A stretch of 64,000 nt of DNA from Nitrospira sp. Its GTDB lineage: Bacteria; Nitrospirota; Nitrospiria; Nitrospirales; Nitrospiraceae. Positions within the stretch are counted from its first letter, which is position 1; the number at the start of each line of letters is the position of its first letter. The notes below the pieces were generated by a model. That model searched no databases. It worked only from the letters and a program-made list of their open reading frames with translations, and was not told the origin of the DNA. The translations under genes and the position numbers were made by a program. Below, one piece after another: positions 35,643 to 60,924 of this stretch. The stretch lies in NCBI GenBank assembly GCA_029194725.1, contig JARFXQ010000005.1, forward strand, positions 62,001-126,000, read 5' to 3'.

Positions 35643-37451
35643 ATGATTGAACGCGCGGGATCAAAGATGAACTGGAAGATTGTAGTCGGCGTCATGATGT
35701 TCGCGATGATCCCTGTCTCTAGCTGTGACCAAGGTGCAGGGCCAACTAGCGAGCTCCCTCCTTCAACCCCTCCTCCCCAAACCCCTCCTCCTCAAACCCC
35801 TCCTCCTTCAAACCCTCCTCCTTCAAACCCTCCTCCTTCAAACCCTCCTCCTTCAACTCCTCCAGTAGTGCCTGTGGTGCCGGTCGCAGAAGTGGCGAAT
35901 CCTTGCCCGCGATTCAACCCTGGAGCTGTTGTACAGCAGCCACCGGCGCTCTTTAGTCAAAATGGTGTATTGGTTGTCCAATTTTCTTATCAAACCCGGA
36001 CCGACGATGCGAACCGATCGTTATTTTGCTTTATGACTCCGAACGGTCTGCAAAACCCGACGCTGCATGTGAAGCCGGGGGACCACTTAATCATAACCGT
36101 GACCAACAATACGCCCCCGCAACCGGAACATATGCCGCTCGATCCACCAAACTGCGGACCAGGGGGCGCTCAAATGACAGGGGCATCGCTGAACATTCAC
36201 TACCATGGCACCAACCTGTCCCCCACGTGCCAATCCGATGAGGTGATCAAGACCCTCATTAATTCCAGACAGACGTTCCAATATACGCTCACGATTCCTG
36301 CCGACGAGCCACCGGGACTGTACTGGTATCATCCCCATGTGCATGGGTTTTCCGAACAAGCAGTTCTGGGTGGCGCCTCCGGAGCCCTCGTCATCGACGG
36401 CATTGAAAACGTCAACCCGGCGGTGGCGAATCTACGTCAGCGCATCCTCATGATCCGAGACCAGCGGACGCGCCAAAAGTTACCTCAAGGCAGCGGGACA
36501 GACCTCAATGGCATTCCATTCAGGGATCTCACGATCAACCACATTCCGACAAACGCCACGACTGACACCACAACCCGTCGCACCACCTATACCCCCGCCA
36601 TTCTTCAGATGGAAGCGGGAGAGCGTCAGTTCTGGCGTATATCCAACTCGACCGCCGACAGTATTCTCGATCTCCAAGTGCAGTTCGACGGCGTCCCGCA
36701 GCCCATCGAGATTGTGGCCATTGACGGGGTGCCGGTCAACTCCCAGGGCGGCGTTCAGCAGACGCACTTCCGACTGCCGACTGCGTCGCGGGTAGAATTT
36801 CTCGTGAATACCCCCCCGTCCACTGTGAAGGTGGCGCAATTAGTGACTCAGAATACCAACACGGGAGTCAGCGGCGACAATAACCCCAACCGACCCCTCT
36901 TGAATATTCAAGTACCTGTCGGCCTGCAGACCGAGGCGGCCGAAGACGACCGCATCGGCTCCTCCGTGGCGTCCGCCCTTAACCTGAATCGGGTTGCCGG
37001 CTTGACCGCCGCGCCCGTTGCCAGACAGCGGCGCGTGTTTTTCACCGAGAACGCGCCGAACCAGTTCTTTATGAATGTGGAAGGGCAACCGGAAAAGGTG
37101 TTCGATCCGAACGCCGGTCCTGCCATTACCGCGACCCAGGGAACCGTCGAGGAGTGGGTAGTGGAAAATCGTACGAGAGGAAATCACGAATTCCACTTGC
37201 ACCAAGTTCACTTCCTAGTAGAAGCGCAAAGCAACTTTGAAATCAACGGCAATGGGCCGGCGCCGGGGATCACCGGGCAATTCTTGGACACGATCGACGT
37301 TCCACACTGGGATGGAAATTCGAACAATCCGTTTCCCAGTGTCACACTTCGGGTCGACTTTCGCGGACAGGACATCGGCGATTTCGTGTTTCATTGCCAC
37401 ATCCTGGTCCACGAGGATCGGGGCATGATGAACATCATCCGCGTCCAGTAA
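35643..37451 (+). CDS. Multicopper oxidase, lipoprotein with Pro-rich tether
   Basis: 602 residues. Signal with lipobox PVSSC, then a Pro-rich linker (about residues 40-80) and three cupredoxin domains. All four copper-ligand segments are present: HYHG, YWYHPHVHG, HEFHLHQVHF and FHCHILVHEDRGMM, giving the type 1 Cys with axial Met and the trinuclear cluster His set. Expected to oxidise a substrate (phenols, Cu(I), Fe(II) or Mn(II)) with reduction of oxygen to water at the cell surface. The ATG at 35643 follows AAGGGAAG; an ATG at 35667 is possible. Confidence 0.92.
   Translation: MIERAGSKMNWKIVVGVMMFAMIPVSSCDQGAGPTSELPPSTPPPQTPPPQTPPPSNPPPSNPPPSNPPPSTPPVVPVVPVAEVANPCPRFNPGAVVQQPPALFSQNGVLVVQFSYQTRTDDANRSLFCFMTPNGLQNPTLHVKPGDHLIITVTNNTPPQPEHMPLDPPNCGPGGAQMTGASLNIHYHGTNLSPTCQSDEVIKTLINSRQTFQYTLTIPADEPPGLYWYHPHVHGFSEQAVLGGASGALVIDGIENVNPAVANLRQRILMIRDQRTRQKLPQGSGTDLNGIPFRDLTINHIPTNATTDTTTRRTTYTPAILQMEAGERQFWRISNSTADSILDLQVQFDGVPQPIEIVAIDGVPVNSQGGVQQTHFRLPTASRVEFLVNTPPSTVKVAQLVTQNTNTGVSGDNNPNRPLLNIQVPVGLQTEAAEDDRIGSSVASALNLNRVAGLTAAPVARQRRVFFTENAPNQFFMNVEGQPEKVFDPNAGPAITATQGTVEEWVVENRTRGNHEFHLHQVHFLVEAQSNFEINGNGPAPGITGQFLDTIDVPHWDGNSNNPFPSVTLRVDFRGQDIGDFVFHCHILVHEDRGMMNIIRVQ
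35757..35872. repeat. 15-bp tandem repeats coding for the Pro-rich tether
   Basis: Units of the type CCTCCTCAAACCCCT and CCTCCTTCAAACCCT repeat seven or so times, coding for TPPPQ and NPPPS pentapeptides. They lie directly after the lipobox of the multicopper oxidase and set the distance of the enzyme from the membrane. Repeat number is likely to vary by slippage. Confidence 0.85.
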
Positions 37452-54869: not shown

Positions 54870-56876
54870 ATGGCGCAAGATGTATCGGGCAGTTCTGCGA
54901 AAAACGTGATGTGTAGCAGCTGGAAAGCATGCCTCGCCGGGGTCTTGGGGATCATGCTGTGCGTGTCCGGCCAAGAATCAGCACAGGCCACGACGGGAGT
55001 CGGGCCGTATGTGGTTCCACAGGTTCTCGACAGTAATGCTGATCCCAATATTATCGAGACTTACATTGTGGCAGACGAGGCGAGCGTCAATATTGCTCCG
55101 GCAGGCATTCCGACGGTGACAGCGAATGGGATGGCGTTTAAGAGCTGTTCAGACGTTGGTTTGGCCAATTGTACTCCGGCCGCAATACCTGGTCCGGAGT
55201 TTCGGCTCAAGGTTGGAAATCGGGTCATCGTGCATTTTGTGAATAACCTCAATGTGTCAAATTTGACTCCCGAGGCGAATGTGTCGGGTATTCACTGGCA
55301 TGGCATCGAGTTGAGCAATCAAAGCGATGGCACGGAAGTGACCCAGCCTGCAGTGGCTCCAGGGGGTTCGTTCACCTACGATTTCACCGTCAGCCGGCCG
55401 GGGATCTTTTGGTACCACCCTCATCACCACTCGTCGACCAACCAAGTGGCGAAAGGGCTCTACGGGTCGATCATAGTTGAAGATAAAGATGGGTATGAGG
55501 CAGCCCTCATCGCACAAAACGTGATCCCTTCGGCAGCGCAAACCAAGACGCTGGTGATTAGCGACATCACGGTCTGCGGCGCTCCTGGGACTGGGACCAA
55601 CCCGGCTACATTTGATGGCAATCTCCCGCACGTCAGTGGCATTCAATCGTGGGAGATCAACTACCAAAATCACATATTGACTCAGTCTCCGTTCATCCTC
55701 TGCGAGGCGTATCCGCTCGATGCAAATGGAGAGTATAAACCGGGTTTATACGGTGCCGGAGATGTTCCAAACATTCAATCTCCCACGTTGATTGGTTCTA
55801 TGAGTGAAGGGTTTACGGTCCTGACTAACGGCGTCAATGTCGGCGGGAGGTTGGGATCTCCTGGTGAGCCAGGCGCGCTTGAAGCCAACGCGCAAACACT
55901 TGACGTCCAGGCGGGTCAGGGATTGCGGTTGCGGATCGTGAATCCTTCGCCGGTTCGTTACCTTCGCCTCCGGTTGACGACCAACAGTGGACATCTCATC
56001 CCACTGGTTCGAATCGGTGGAGAGGGAGGGTTGCTCAACAAAGCGGTTGTTGAGGGGGGTGTTGAGCGAGGGTTCGATTCTAAGTATGGGAGGGGCGAGA
56101 TCCTGCTCCCGCCTGCAGGTCGTGCTGATGTGGTCGCGGAGATTCCACGTTCCACAGAGCAGCACTCCGTGCTCACTCTCTGGACACAGGATTTCCAGCG
56201 AGTGGCAGCCACCTACTCGTGGATCCCGACGGTGCCGGTAATACATCTGATGGTGAATGGTCGTGCGGCCACTCCGTACAGAATTGGGGACAGTGAGCCG
56301 CTGCTTGCAAGTTTAGGAGCGCATGCGATGGTCAAGGTTCTCGGTGCACCAACGGGTGATCTTGTCGTTCCCTCCGGCGAAGCCGGCGTAAATGGGAAGC
56401 CGGCTGGGTCGACGAATAAAGACATCCAGCTGACGTTCTTTAACAACACCGGCGCTTTTCAGCCGTCGATTGATGGGGTCCCGATGCCGCGTGACTTCAC
56501 GGGTCTGGTCGGCGGCAATCCTTTGAATCCTTTTTTTCTGGAATCAGCCCGTCATGCAGAGCTCGACAAGACGATGGAGCTGACGGTGACCAATGTGACC
56601 GGGGCGCATCATCCGTTTCATTTGCACGGGTTTTCGGTACAGCCGATTACACTGGCCCCACGAGCAGGCACAAAAGGGCCGAAGTACAAGTTCCCTCCTG
56701 AGTTTCGGGATATCGTAGATGTGCCTGAGAATTACACCCTCACGTTCCGGGTCTCCCTGGACGATCACCTGAAGCCCGATCTGTCACCCGGGGGAGGTAA
56801 GGGTCGGTGGCTGTTTCATTGTCACATCCTCCCTCATGCCACGTTCGGGATGATGTCGGAGCTTCACGTCCACTGA
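54870..56876 (+). CDS. Multicopper oxidase, secreted
   Basis: 668 residues from the ATG at 54870 (AGGGGGAT upstream). Signal peptide region KACLAGVLGIMLCVSG-AQA. Copper-ligand segments: GIHWHGIEL, FWYHPHHHSS, HHPFHLHGFS and FHCHILPHATFGMM, i.e. a complete type 1/2/3 set with axial Met. No lipobox, unlike the first oxidase, so soluble periplasmic or exported. Followed 58 bp later by a cupredoxin/beta-propeller gene, its probable partner. Substrate unknown. Confidence 0.92.
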   Translation: MAQDVSGSSAKNVMCSSWKACLAGVLGIMLCVSGQESAQATTGVGPYVVPQVLDSNADPNIIETYIVADEASVNIAPAGIPTVTANGMAFKSCSDVGLANCTPAAIPGPEFRLKVGNRVIVHFVNNLNVSNLTPEANVSGIHWHGIELSNQSDGTEVTQPAVAPGGSFTYDFTVSRPGIFWYHPHHHSSTNQVAKGLYGSIIVEDKDGYEAALIAQNVIPSAAQTKTLVISDITVCGAPGTGTNPATFDGNLPHVSGIQSWEINYQNHILTQSPFILCEAYPLDANGEYKPGLYGAGDVPNIQSPTLIGSMSEGFTVLTNGVNVGGRLGSPGEPGALEANAQTLDVQAGQGLRLRIVNPSPVRYLRLRLTTNSGHLIPLVRIGGEGGLLNKAVVEGGVERGFDSKYGRGEILLPPAGRADVVAEIPRSTEQHSVLTLWTQDFQRVAATYSWIPTVPVIHLMVNGRAATPYRIGDSEPLLASLGAHAMVKVLGAPTGDLVVPSGEAGVNGKPAGSTNKDIQLTFFNNTGAFQPSIDGVPMPRDFTGLVGGNPLNPFFLESARHAELDKTMELTVTNVTGAHHPFHLHGFSVQPITLAPRAGTKGPKYKFPPEFRDIVDVPENYTLTFRVSLDDHLKPDLSPGGGKGRWLFHCHILPHATFGMMSELHVH

Positions 56877-56934: not shown

Positions 56935-58980
56935 ATGAAAACGCGATATCTCTTATTGACTGCACTCAGTATACTGATGGGATGGTGGACGGCCGGTGTG
57001 GTCCAGGCCGCTCCTCATGGTCACTCTCCTTCTCGTTCTTCCTCTCCTACCGTCTCATTCGAGGCTGGAGACAGGCCTGGGAACTTTTTTACCTGTTCGA
57101 ACACAGCCAACTCGAAATCACTCGGGTGTGTGCCTCCGTCCATTGGAGGGGCTCAGCAGAGGTCCCTCGCAGTCATTGCTCCAGGGGAAACGGTGGGGTT
57201 TCCCACGTATAGTGGAGAAGCAAGTACGGTCCATACGGCGCTGAGCTTGATTTACCCCGATGGAGCCAAAAACATGCCATTCAAGACAGCCATCGATGTT
57301 CGTGATCCGGCAAAGCGAGGGGTGGCCACAGTGAAATTGACGACGCCGGGACTGTACGTCTTCATCTGTGACATCCATGTCTACATGTTCGCGGCGGTCA
57401 TCGTGGATAATCCCTTAACGAAAGTGAATGCCCCGGCCAACCAATTCCCAGGCTTAGGATTGGATCTTGGCAAAAAGATTAGCCTGGTCAACGGCATTAC
57501 GGTGCCGACCTTTAGCGATTTGGCGGTCCGCCTCTTGCGGACCTTCTTTATCATCACGGATCCGACGAATTGGAAAGATTACACCAAGGCGTCGTGGACA
57601 CCAGCCTTTCCCGCTGTCCCGGTGATTGTGTACGATGTGACTGGGAAGAGGATTGATGTTCCGGATCTCTCTGCGGTGCTGGGGATTGGGACAGTCCCTC
57701 TAACGAATGCATTGTCTAACCCGACAACACCAGCAGTGGGTGAAATCTGGGTCGACACCCAGTTCGAATTGACGGCGGGGAAATCAAAGCCGGGGACGGC
57801 GACGGCCGTCGACGGAGGGACATGGGCGTTGACGAAGAAAATTGCACTCCCAACGACCAATATGAACCATCCCCACAACATGTGGACGGATAAAGATCAG
57901 AAGGTGATCTATCAGACCCAATGGCTCGACGAGAGATTGACGGTGTTTAATAGAGAGGACGGATCGTTCGTGCGTGAACTGAAGGCGGGTCCCGCTCCCT
58001 CACATGTGATGACGAGGGCCAATAATGATCTCGTGCATGTGGCACAGAACGGTGGCAATAACGTACGGGAATTTAATGATTATGCGGGTTCAGGTGGCCT
58101 CAGTCCAAATGCATTTATTCGGGACATCCCGATGGGATCGGGGGGAGAGGACGTGTTTACCGCCACCCATCCCCATGGTCATTGGATGAGCGCTGACGGA
58201 AGCATGATGGTGACGCCCAATGAAAATCTCAATACGTCAACGGTGTACAATTTTCCAGCAGGTGCAATCCAGAAAACACTTTCCACAGGACATGTGCCAA
58301 TCGCCACGGGAATGATGCCTGATTCGAGCAAGTATTACGTGGCCAATTTTCTCGACAACACCATATCGGTCATAAATATGGCTACCAACATGGAGATCAA
58401 GAAGATTAACTTGATCGCCAACTACGACCCAGTCAGTGGAGTGGTGGTGCCGGATCCGGCCTCAGGTAAGACGTTTGTCGGCGCCCTGCCGATTCAGACG
58501 CCCGTTAGCCCGGACGGAAAGAACATGGTCACGGCCAATACTCTAACCGCGAGCATTACGATTGTTGATACGCGGCATCTACTGTCGAACGGTAGTGTCA
58601 ATCCGAAGGAAGACACGGTCGTGGCGATGTTGACCTGTGACCCAGGCTGCCATGGTGTGCAATATGGCGCCAAGGTAGGAGGCGGGTACTACGCCTTTGT
58701 CGCCAACAAGGTCAGCAACGCGATGATTGTCGTGGATCCTGATCCCGATATGAACGGCGACCCGAGCGATGCTGCGGTGGTTGGGCGCGTGTTGCTAGCT
58801 GGATCGGCCGCTGTGAACGACGATACGGTGATCGGCAATGCGGGCATGGGCGGACAGGGTGTCCTGCCGGTTCCCGTCGTCTACAACGGGTGGGTGCAAA
58901 ATTTACCCACCTCTTGGTGTAATCTACTGACGGCGCAGCAACGGAACCCGATCGGTGCTCCAGTTAACAGCTGTCCGTAA
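56935..58980 (+). CDS. Secreted cupredoxin plus beta-propeller fusion protein
   Basis: 681 residues with signal peptide ending QAA. N-terminal domain (about 40-160) is plastocyanin-like with the type 1 set His100, Cys145, His148 and Met151 (CDIHVYM). From about 290 to 640 repeated blades of the YVTN/YncE type follow (VYNF, YYVANFLDNTISVINM, NTLTASITIVDTRHL). The propeller carries unusual His clusters: H312 and H314 (NHPHNM), H412, H414, H416 (THPHGHW) and Cys568/Cys572/His573 (CDPGCH). Two Cys lie near the end. A second metal site is possible. Confidence 0.85.
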   Translation: MKTRYLLLTALSILMGWWTAGVVQAAPHGHSPSRSSSPTVSFEAGDRPGNFFTCSNTANSKSLGCVPPSIGGAQQRSLAVIAPGETVGFPTYSGEASTVHTALSLIYPDGAKNMPFKTAIDVRDPAKRGVATVKLTTPGLYVFICDIHVYMFAAVIVDNPLTKVNAPANQFPGLGLDLGKKISLVNGITVPTFSDLAVRLLRTFFIITDPTNWKDYTKASWTPAFPAVPVIVYDVTGKRIDVPDLSAVLGIGTVPLTNALSNPTTPAVGEIWVDTQFELTAGKSKPGTATAVDGGTWALTKKIALPTTNMNHPHNMWTDKDQKVIYQTQWLDERLTVFNREDGSFVRELKAGPAPSHVMTRANNDLVHVAQNGGNNVREFNDYAGSGGLSPNAFIRDIPMGSGGEDVFTATHPHGHWMSADGSMMVTPNENLNTSTVYNFPAGAIQKTLSTGHVPIATGMMPDSSKYYVANFLDNTISVINMATNMEIKKINLIANYDPVSGVVVPDPASGKTFVGALPIQTPVSPDGKNMVTANTLTASITIVDTRHLLSNGSVNPKEDTVVAMLTCDPGCHGVQYGAKVGGGYYAFVANKVSNAMIVVDPDPDMNGDPSDAAVVGRVLLAGSAAVNDDTVIGNAGMGGQGVLPVPVVYNGWVQNLPTSWCNLLTAQQRNPIGAPVNSCP

Positions 58981-59033: not shown

Positions 59034-59064
59034 GTCCCGCCTGGGTTGGGTACCCAGGCGGGAC
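59034..59064 (+). terminator. Rho-independent-like terminator after the copper-protein operon
   Basis: Perfect 12-bp stem GTCCCGCCTGGG (59034-59045) and CCCAGGCGGGAC (59053-59064) with a 7-nt loop, followed by GTGTTATG. The T-tract is weak, but the stem is very stable. Placed 53 bp after the stop of the cupredoxin/propeller gene. Confidence 0.72.
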
Positions 59065-60235: not shown

Positions 60236-60263
60236 TTGACAAGGGTGCTACGCACCCTATACT
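60236..60263 (+). promoter_or_regulatory. Promoter with embedded operator palindrome for the vapB/vapC-type operon
   Basis: -35 TTGACA (60236-60241), 16-bp spacer, -10 TATACT (60258-60263), both close to sigma-70 consensus. The spacer contains a perfect inverted repeat AGGGTGC-TAC-GCACCCT (60242-60258). A repressor bound there would block RNA polymerase, matching the autoregulation typical of toxin-antitoxin operons. Confidence 0.75.
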
Positions 60264-60301
60264 GTGAATTAGTCCTAGCATTCCTCCTAGGGAGGTTCCA
60301 G

Positions 60302-60529
60302 ATGAACAACCCCATCCGTGCCCGTGTCAAGGGCGGCGTCATCGAACCGCTGGAACAGATTGATTTGCCCGAGGGTCAGGAGGTCATGGTGACTATTCTT
60401 GCTCCAACCGACCGCCAGGCTTTTCAGCGCAGCGCAGGGCAGTGGAAGGGCACACTCGACGCCGAGGCGCTCATTCGCAACATCTATGCTGATCGATTGG
60501 TTCCTACCAGACCTGTCCCCAACCTATGA
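60302..60529 (+). CDS. DUF104-type antitoxin (AF2212-like)
   Basis: 75 residues from the ATG at 60302, 6 nt after GGGAGG; the longer frame from 60236 would start inside the promoter. IRARVKGGVIEPLEQIDLPE and GQEVMVTILAP are the DUF104 pattern: a small beta-rich antitoxin. Overlaps the toxin start by 4 nt. Confidence 0.88.
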   Translation: MNNPIRARVKGGVIEPLEQIDLPEGQEVMVTILAPTDRQAFQRSAGQWKGTLDAEALIRNIYADRLVPTRPVPNL

Positions 60530-60924
60530 TCTTTCGGTATCTCATCGATACAGACTGGATTATTCATTATCTGAACGGCCATCCAGATATCGTCAGCCGG
60601 CTGAACATCTTGCGCGATGAAGGCTGCGCAGTGTCGGTCATCTCGCTCGCTGAACTGTACGAAGGCGTCTATAATTCCTCCAATCCAACGGGTAACGAAC
60701 GCGCCTTGAATGATTTTCTCCGTGGGGTCACCGTTCTCGGTATCGATGAAGAGACTTGCAAAATCTTTGGCCGACACCGTGGGCGGCTTCGTGCTGCAGG
60801 GAAATTGACAGGTGACTTTGACCTCCTCATCGGCTCTACAGGGCTCCGCCATGGGCTGAAGGTGCTGACAAACAATCGGCGTCACTTCACGCTCATCGAT
60901 GGACTTCTTATCGAATCACTCTAG
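60526..60924 (+). CDS. vapC: VapC-type PIN-domain RNase toxin
   Basis: 132 residues. PIN acidic residues: IDTDWIIHYL (first Asp), ISLAELYEGV (Glu) and TGDFDLLIGSTGL (Asp pair), with TNNRRHF near the end. The family cleaves tRNA or rRNA at specific sites when free of its antitoxin. Coupled through ATGA to the DUF104 gene upstream. All catalytic residues are present, so it is probably active. Confidence 0.9.
   Translation: MIFRYLIDTDWIIHYLNGHPDIVSRLNILRDEGCAVSVISLAELYEGVYNSSNPTGNERALNDFLRGVTVLGIDEETCKIFGRHRGRLRAAGKLTGDFDLLIGSTGLRHGLKVLTNNRRHFTLIDGLLIESL

Follow-up and report, generated by a model that had tools for sequence, protein, structure and literature searches.

The window analyzed here, a 64,000-nucleotide stretch of a Nitrospira sp. 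contig to which all unprefixed positions below refer, carries a two-gene unit on the forward strand. The first gene (54870..56876, +), which likely starts at ATG 54870 with an AGGGGGA ribosome site ahead of it, encodes a multicopper oxidase (MCO) of 668 aa that matches PF07732 (E 2.9e-23) and PF07731 (E 7e-20) in hmmscan, has all four HxH motifs of T1/T2/T3 copper (HWH, HPH, HLH, and HCH), and among models comes closest to those of copper-resistance MCOs (TIGR01480, E 4.2e-24). The second gene (P0001; 56935..58980, +) is open and in frame from ATG to stop and encodes the 681-aa cupredoxin-propeller protein that we studied by alignment (A1) and AlphaFold modeling. The MCO gene is intact and lies directly upstream with a gap of 58 bases, in agreement with the operon that the initial annotation had proposed. 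A perfect 12-bp hairpin 3' of the second gene (59034..59064, +), read from the sequence, is a possible transcript end and was missed by a terminator scan that requires a T run. The genome of the window also contains amoA (an AmoA family match over the cut-off), and the organism is therefore of the comammox type. Elsewhere in the window, a second complete MCO gene with HxH motifs lies 18 kb upstream (35643-37448, +; 602 aa), its product having a lipoprotein-like N-terminus with a Pro-rich repeat, and a small gene with the PIN-like gene behind it (60236-60924, +) was read by eye as probably a toxin-antitoxin pair.

Alignment A1, of 47 sequences, underlies the AlphaFold model of the 681-aa protein (mean pLDDT 88.9, pTM 0.90); conservation counts were taken over 75 homologues, which come from Nitrospira, Methylomirabilota, AOA, AOB, and methanotrophs. 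Behind a predicted Sec-type signal peptide (residues 1-25, MKTRYLLLTALSILMGWWTAGVVQA; 56935..57009, +; read from the sequence), a type 1 cupredoxin spans residues 40-160 (57052..57414, +), recognizable from its conserved ligands and from an A1 profile match to pseudoazurin 2ux6, a solved blue-copper protein (E 9.6e-6). Its His-Cys-His-Met set is complete and as first annotated, with H100 (57232-57234), C145 (57367-57369), and H148 (57376-57378) each present in 75/75 homologues and M151 (57385-57387) in 73/75, all on the + strand; the single Cys and the C-x2-H-x2-M spacing identify a type 1 and not a CuA domain. A family-specific linker with an invariant W213 (residues 161-263; 57415..57723, +), visible in both alignment and model, leads to a seven-bladed YVTN/lactonase-type beta-propeller (residues 264-663; 57724..58923, +). 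The proposed order of a cupredoxin preceding a YVTN-type propeller is thereby upheld, as both the AlphaFold strands and the structural matches show the propeller to be the second half of the protein.

In the AlphaFold strand map the innermost strands of the seven blades fall at residues 313-318, 355-360, 413-418, 455-460, 519-524, 572-580, and 640-646, the last of which pairs with 270-303 and closes the propeller ring. Invariant in all 75 homologues are the propeller residues H314, H357, H414, H416, H573, N315, A457, Q521, Y468, Y585, W317, and W330, and nearly invariant are Q641 (74/75), C568 (74/75), and C572 (73/75). H314 (57874..57876) and H357 (58003..58005) lie at the axial ends of the innermost strands of blades 1 and 2, H414-G-H416 (58174..58182) on the innermost strand of blade 3, and C568-D-P-G-C572-H573 (58636..58653) at the entry of blade 6, all on the + strand. 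Conservation therefore sustains only part of the His clustering originally pointed out, since H314, H414, and H416 are fixed while H312 (H 38, N 37 of 75) and H412 (H in 34/75) vary, and the invariant H357 had been overlooked; the Cys-x3-Cys-His site, also pointed out then, is kept. The residues H314, H357, H414, A457, Q521, H573, and Q641 stand at the starts of the seven innermost strands, and from this blade register they would form one ring round the central channel at one of its ends. Each of the five invariant His falls within the opening four residues of an innermost strand, a set of 28 among 402 positions, which by random placement has p ~1e-6, and those of blades 1, 2, 3, and 6 share the same axial register in the strand map, which records register and not distances. 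Judged by this register, a metal site, putatively of copper, may lie on the propeller axis.

By VIA-align, the best structural match of the propeller is the YVTN surface-layer protein 1l0q (Z 39.1), with lactonases at Z 32-36 and NosZ structures at Z 30-32 (~310 residues aligned); fold likeness to any of these shows no function. This best match, and the non-catalytic nature of many YVTN propellers, would suit a metal-free propeller that serves only to bring the cupredoxin together with the MCO or with a partner at the cell surface. Such docking does not require that His, Gln, Trp, and Tyr of the channel stay strictly invariant from archaea to bacteria at 40-50% identity, as they do, and we consider a role of this kind decidedly unlikely.

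The initial annotation had described the protein as reversing the architecture of nitrous oxide reductase. Proteins that resemble NosZ and have a propeller of the lactonase type (L-NosZ) have been described in Nitrospirota (PMC11033732) and are a recent recognition (see also PMC13122619). We took L-NosZ sequences from other Nitrospirota (alignment A2) and NF052460 as the L-NosZ model; one such sequence matches canonical NosZ (~E 1e-25) through the C-terminal CuA domain. Aligned by hhalign over 245 columns (probability 97.5, E 5.7e-12), A1 pairs H314, H414, H416, and H573 with L-NosZ H133, H219, H221, and H383, whereas N315, A457, and Q521, each 75/75, oppose H134, H262, and H325. Of the seven L-NosZ His that, by analogy with NosZ, would be CuZ ligands, three are matched, by H314, H414, and H573; one (in DLHEP) falls beyond the alignment. 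The family thus has part of the axial His set, with other residues fixed elsewhere, and at least three of the seven positions of the seven-His CuZ set are invariantly N, A, or Q. The CuA motif C-x3-C-x3-H-x2-M is absent from the protein, which has only the C-x2-H-x2-M (C145, H148, M151) of its N-terminal cupredoxin, and its score against the L-NosZ model is 29.6 bits compared with an NCBIfam cut-off of 700, the same model giving weak matches in E. coli and other controls as well. Canonical NosZ yields no sequence match to the protein. Membership in NosZ or L-NosZ is ruled out by the ligands, the missing CuA, and the score, and on the last two grounds we do not file the protein as a NosZ; what survives of the reversed architecture is the domain order and the conservation of His in the L-NosZ axial register, while the CuZ set, the CuA center, and the model score speak against it.

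A stripped-down, CuZ-like axial center fed by the cupredoxin might nevertheless reduce N2O (or NO), and could then account for the N2O reduction of marine AOA, which turn N2O into N2 without a known nosZ (PMC11408285). Both the L-NosZ profile likeness, with four aligned His, and the presence of NosZ among the structural matches would accord with such a reductase. We regard it as highly improbable, as three CuZ His are replaced in 75/75 homologues and CuA is lacking, lactonases and plain YVTN propellers match structurally as well or better, the gene is present in only 21/201 genomes of the AOA order, and an O2-reducing MCO is an unexpected partner for a reductase.

The MCO partner differs in type among lineages. 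In 14 Nitrospira loci the gene immediately upstream encodes a CopA/CueO-like MCO of 657-711 aa; in methanotrophs (L059, L062, L065, and L073) and on the Methylocystis rosea plasmid the partner is a complete, separate two-domain laccase gene; and in Nitrosopumilus (L063, L064, and L069) laccase, cupredoxin, and propeller are joined in one protein of 1091-1121 aa. The methanotroph laccase matches 3t9w with E 2.5e-35, and the archaeal fusion protein matches two-domain laccases at its N-terminus (Foldseek); the model of that protein is of medium quality only (pLDDT 66, pTM 0.65), and we claim no domain arrangement from it. In Nitrosocosmicus, Nitrososphaeraceae, and Nitrosomonas, a gene for ~350 aa is followed by one for a fused protein of ~910-1000 aa, and in 16/16 of these split pairs the motifs are complementary, HxH of domain 1 being confined to the small protein and HLH and HCH of domain 2 to the fused one. 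Since the trinuclear site of two-domain laccases lies between domains that belong to different subunits, the paired products, judged by their motifs, very probably form a heteromeric oxidase with a split site. Such split laccase pairs occur across L049-L071 (e.g., L053:4009-5058 and L053:5062-7866) and look undescribed.

The HxH motifs of the O2-reducing trinuclear site are kept in all intact partner MCOs, and the fused forms place the cupredoxin between MCO and propeller. The best argument for electron flow between the two is that the partner remains an O2-type MCO even where its type changes, and both the fusion of the genes and the splitting of the MCO speak for a functional link of the propeller protein with the MCO. 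Either of the roles suggested in the initial annotation, an electron-transfer partner of the MCO or a new copper enzyme, may therefore apply. Stand-alone homologues without an adjacent MCO occur in AOA and AOB, and likewise at loci L046 and L075. An apparent within-ORF MCO fusion in Nitrospira (L041) was discarded because it crosses an unresolved assembly stretch. At another locus (L031:2591-3130; G004:C393:6206-6874), a decayed propeller copy with stops lies upstream of an intact MCO/cupredoxin-propeller pair.

Among the neighbors of the loci examined, no gene names a substrate. A SufR-like (Fe-S type) regulator lies beside three methanotroph copies (L062:8195-8830, L065:4082, and L073:3827-4555; L062 and L073 were tested), and ECF sigma genes lie beside the Methylocystis copy and one Nitrosomonas copy. 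Stand-alone Nitrosomonadaceae copies (L123-L126) have, read by eye, a small exported ORF rich in His on one side and an acidic, RTX-like ORF of ~300 aa on the other. A Nitrosomonas stand-alone copy adjoins a P-type metal ATPase and a MerR-type regulator (by eye), and the Methylocystis rosea plasmid (L118, L122) carries, together with the gene pair, an annotated AmoC, a copper ATPase, Cus-type efflux genes, and NnrS. The metal ATPase and efflux genes of these two settings, the nearness of the window MCO to copper-resistance models, the heavy copper use of nitrifiers and methanotrophs, and the strong up-regulation of two-domain MCOs under copper limitation in Nitrososphaera viennensis (PMC7785015) would be consistent with copper homeostasis, in which the MCO would act as a CueO/CopA-type cuprous oxidase and the cupredoxin-propeller protein would bind or deliver periplasmic Cu(I). 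We consider this fairly unlikely, given that the ordered axial His/Gln ring and the invariant Tyr and Trp look catalytic and not chaperone-like, that no copper genes are recognized beside the Nitrospira or Nitrosopumilus copies, and that the family is nearly absent from 397 other Pseudomonadota genomes, where copper resistance is common.

Surveying the distribution of the family, we found strong homologues in 21/35 Nitrospira genomes, 86/125 Nitrosomonadaceae (often as one stand-alone and one fused copy), 21/201 genomes of the AOA order, and 22/151 genomes of the Methylococcales order, as well as one homologue in Methylomirabilota. Of 398 genomes sampled from Pseudomonadota, only two matched, the query genome and a further one (1/397 others) that has three amoA copies, and among 72,556 plasmids the only matches are on two from Methylocystis rosea. 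AmoA/PmoA is present in 22/25 of the tested A1-positive methanotroph, AOB, and Methylomirabilota genomes. As far as searched, close relatives occur almost only in ammonia-, nitrite-, and methane-oxidizing microbes, and literature searches of open-licence papers returned no description of the family. Within Nitrospira the gene is unassociated with amoA (13/20 vs 8/15, p 0.51), which indicates that ammonia oxidation is not required and that nitrite oxidizers have the gene too, and rules out a comammox-only role; a core AOA enzyme is ruled out by the 21/201 genomes. Among amoA-positive Nitrosomonadaceae, 49/67 have the gene and 18 are without it, so that it is neither a universal nor a core AOB enzyme; the 2x2 test of gene against amoA within this family, where amoA is often lost from draft genomes, is not significant. 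The cupredoxin-propeller gene is thus common but accessory. In the tree, the fused proteins of Nitrosocosmicus and Nitrosomonas group together, which points to transfer between domains.

Collectively, we tentatively favor, with somewhat less than even confidence, a secreted copper oxidoreductase module in which electrons would pass from a propeller site through the cupredoxin to an O2-reducing partner MCO. H314, H357, H414, H416, and H573 would form an axial metal site, probably of copper, with C568/C572 at its rim, and this site would oxidize a small substrate; the electrons would travel to the cupredoxin type 1 copper and on to its type 1 counterpart in the partner MCO, which would reduce O2 at its trinuclear site. 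The direction of this flow, the catalysis, and the propeller copper are putative. We favor the module because the ring, H416, C568, and C572 are kept in archaea and bacteria in the L-NosZ His register, because a partner MCO is adjacent or fused in most lineages although its type differs, because the cupredoxin sits between MCO and propeller in fused forms, as a relay would, and because the gene is concentrated in nitrifiers and methanotrophs (86/125 Nitrosomonadaceae vs 1/397 other Pseudomonadota; 22/25 with AmoA/PmoA). The AOA and AOB stand-alone copies and loci L046 and L075, lacking an adjacent MCO, argue against it.

The leading, though weak, guess at the substrate is a reactive compound formed when ammonia or methane is oxidized, nitric oxide or hydroxylamine for example; such a substrate is unlikely but conceivable, and would make the module an accessory NO/NH2OH-oxidizing or protective enzyme and not a core step. 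The NO to nitrite step of bacterial ammonia oxidation is still without an enzyme (PMC13170337), and the NO oxidoreductase is missing in AOB (PMC13170337; PMC10472526). It would be a long shot, and in our estimation a very unlikely one, that the H-H-H-A-Q-H-Q ring, H416, and the Cys pair represent a new family of copper enzymes in nitrifiers and methanotrophs, obtained by re-wiring a NosZ-like propeller, that oxidizes NO or hydroxylamine together with an O2-reducing (often split) MCO and is a candidate nitric oxide oxidoreductase, at least as an accessory route; the 18 amoA-positive genomes without the gene argue against its being the sole such enzyme.

Nitrifiers and methanotrophs rely on copper enzymes, and the propeller protein offers a concrete gene for testing. 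The combination of a strictly conserved, copper-type propeller with an MCO is common to comammox and nitrite-oxidizing Nitrospira, AOB, AOA, and methanotrophs, and the blue-copper domain, the conserved His ring, and the near-restriction to nitrifiers and methanotrophs make the protein a good candidate for a copper enzyme of nitrogen and methane cycling that has yet to be described. If the module exists, NosZ-like propeller enzymes would extend past N2O reduction, and an unusual trait of the split laccase would be that two degenerate gene copies together supply one catalytic copper site.

Among known systems, L-NosZ shares with this family a seven-bladed lactonase-type propeller, axial strand-end His, secretion, and linkage to a cupredoxin, but its cupredoxin is a C-terminal CuA domain whereas here it is N-terminal and type 1, and the present family has H357 and C568/C572 in addition and N315, A457, and Q521 instead of three CuZ His. 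Canonical NosZ (clades I and II) likewise combines propeller and cupredoxin, with a structural alignment of ~310 residues; here the domain order is reversed, CuA is missing, and the CuZ ligand set is incomplete. The hydrazine synthase beta subunit (profile E 3.6e-12) is likewise a propeller of the YVTN type from bacteria of the nitrogen cycle, but its likeness is confined to generic blades. Two-domain (small) laccases resemble the partner found in methanotrophs and the N-terminal part of the archaeal fusion; the laccase here differs in being attached to a cupredoxin and propeller, and in other AOA and in AOB its trinuclear motifs are split over two genes. Neither thiocyanate dehydrogenase (TcDH) nor SELENBP1 is among the sequence matches of the cupredoxin-propeller protein: a PDB search gives no match to TcDH, and hmmscan at E up to 1 gives YNCE and SGL only, with no selenium-binding protein Pfam match. 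TcDH, with three coppers in its propeller site, is similar in that copper in the central tunnel of a seven-bladed propeller oxidizes the substrate and an external acceptor takes the electrons (PMC9456337), although its described acceptor is cytochrome c, in place of the fused cupredoxin with an MCO found here. SELENBP1/methanethiol oxidase, also a seven-bladed propeller, requires axial His for copper-dependent oxidation (PMC10362175), but has other motifs and is without a cupredoxin or MCO partner. Taken together, TcDH and SELENBP1 are precedents for propeller copper that oxidizes small molecules (PMC9456337, PMC10362175).
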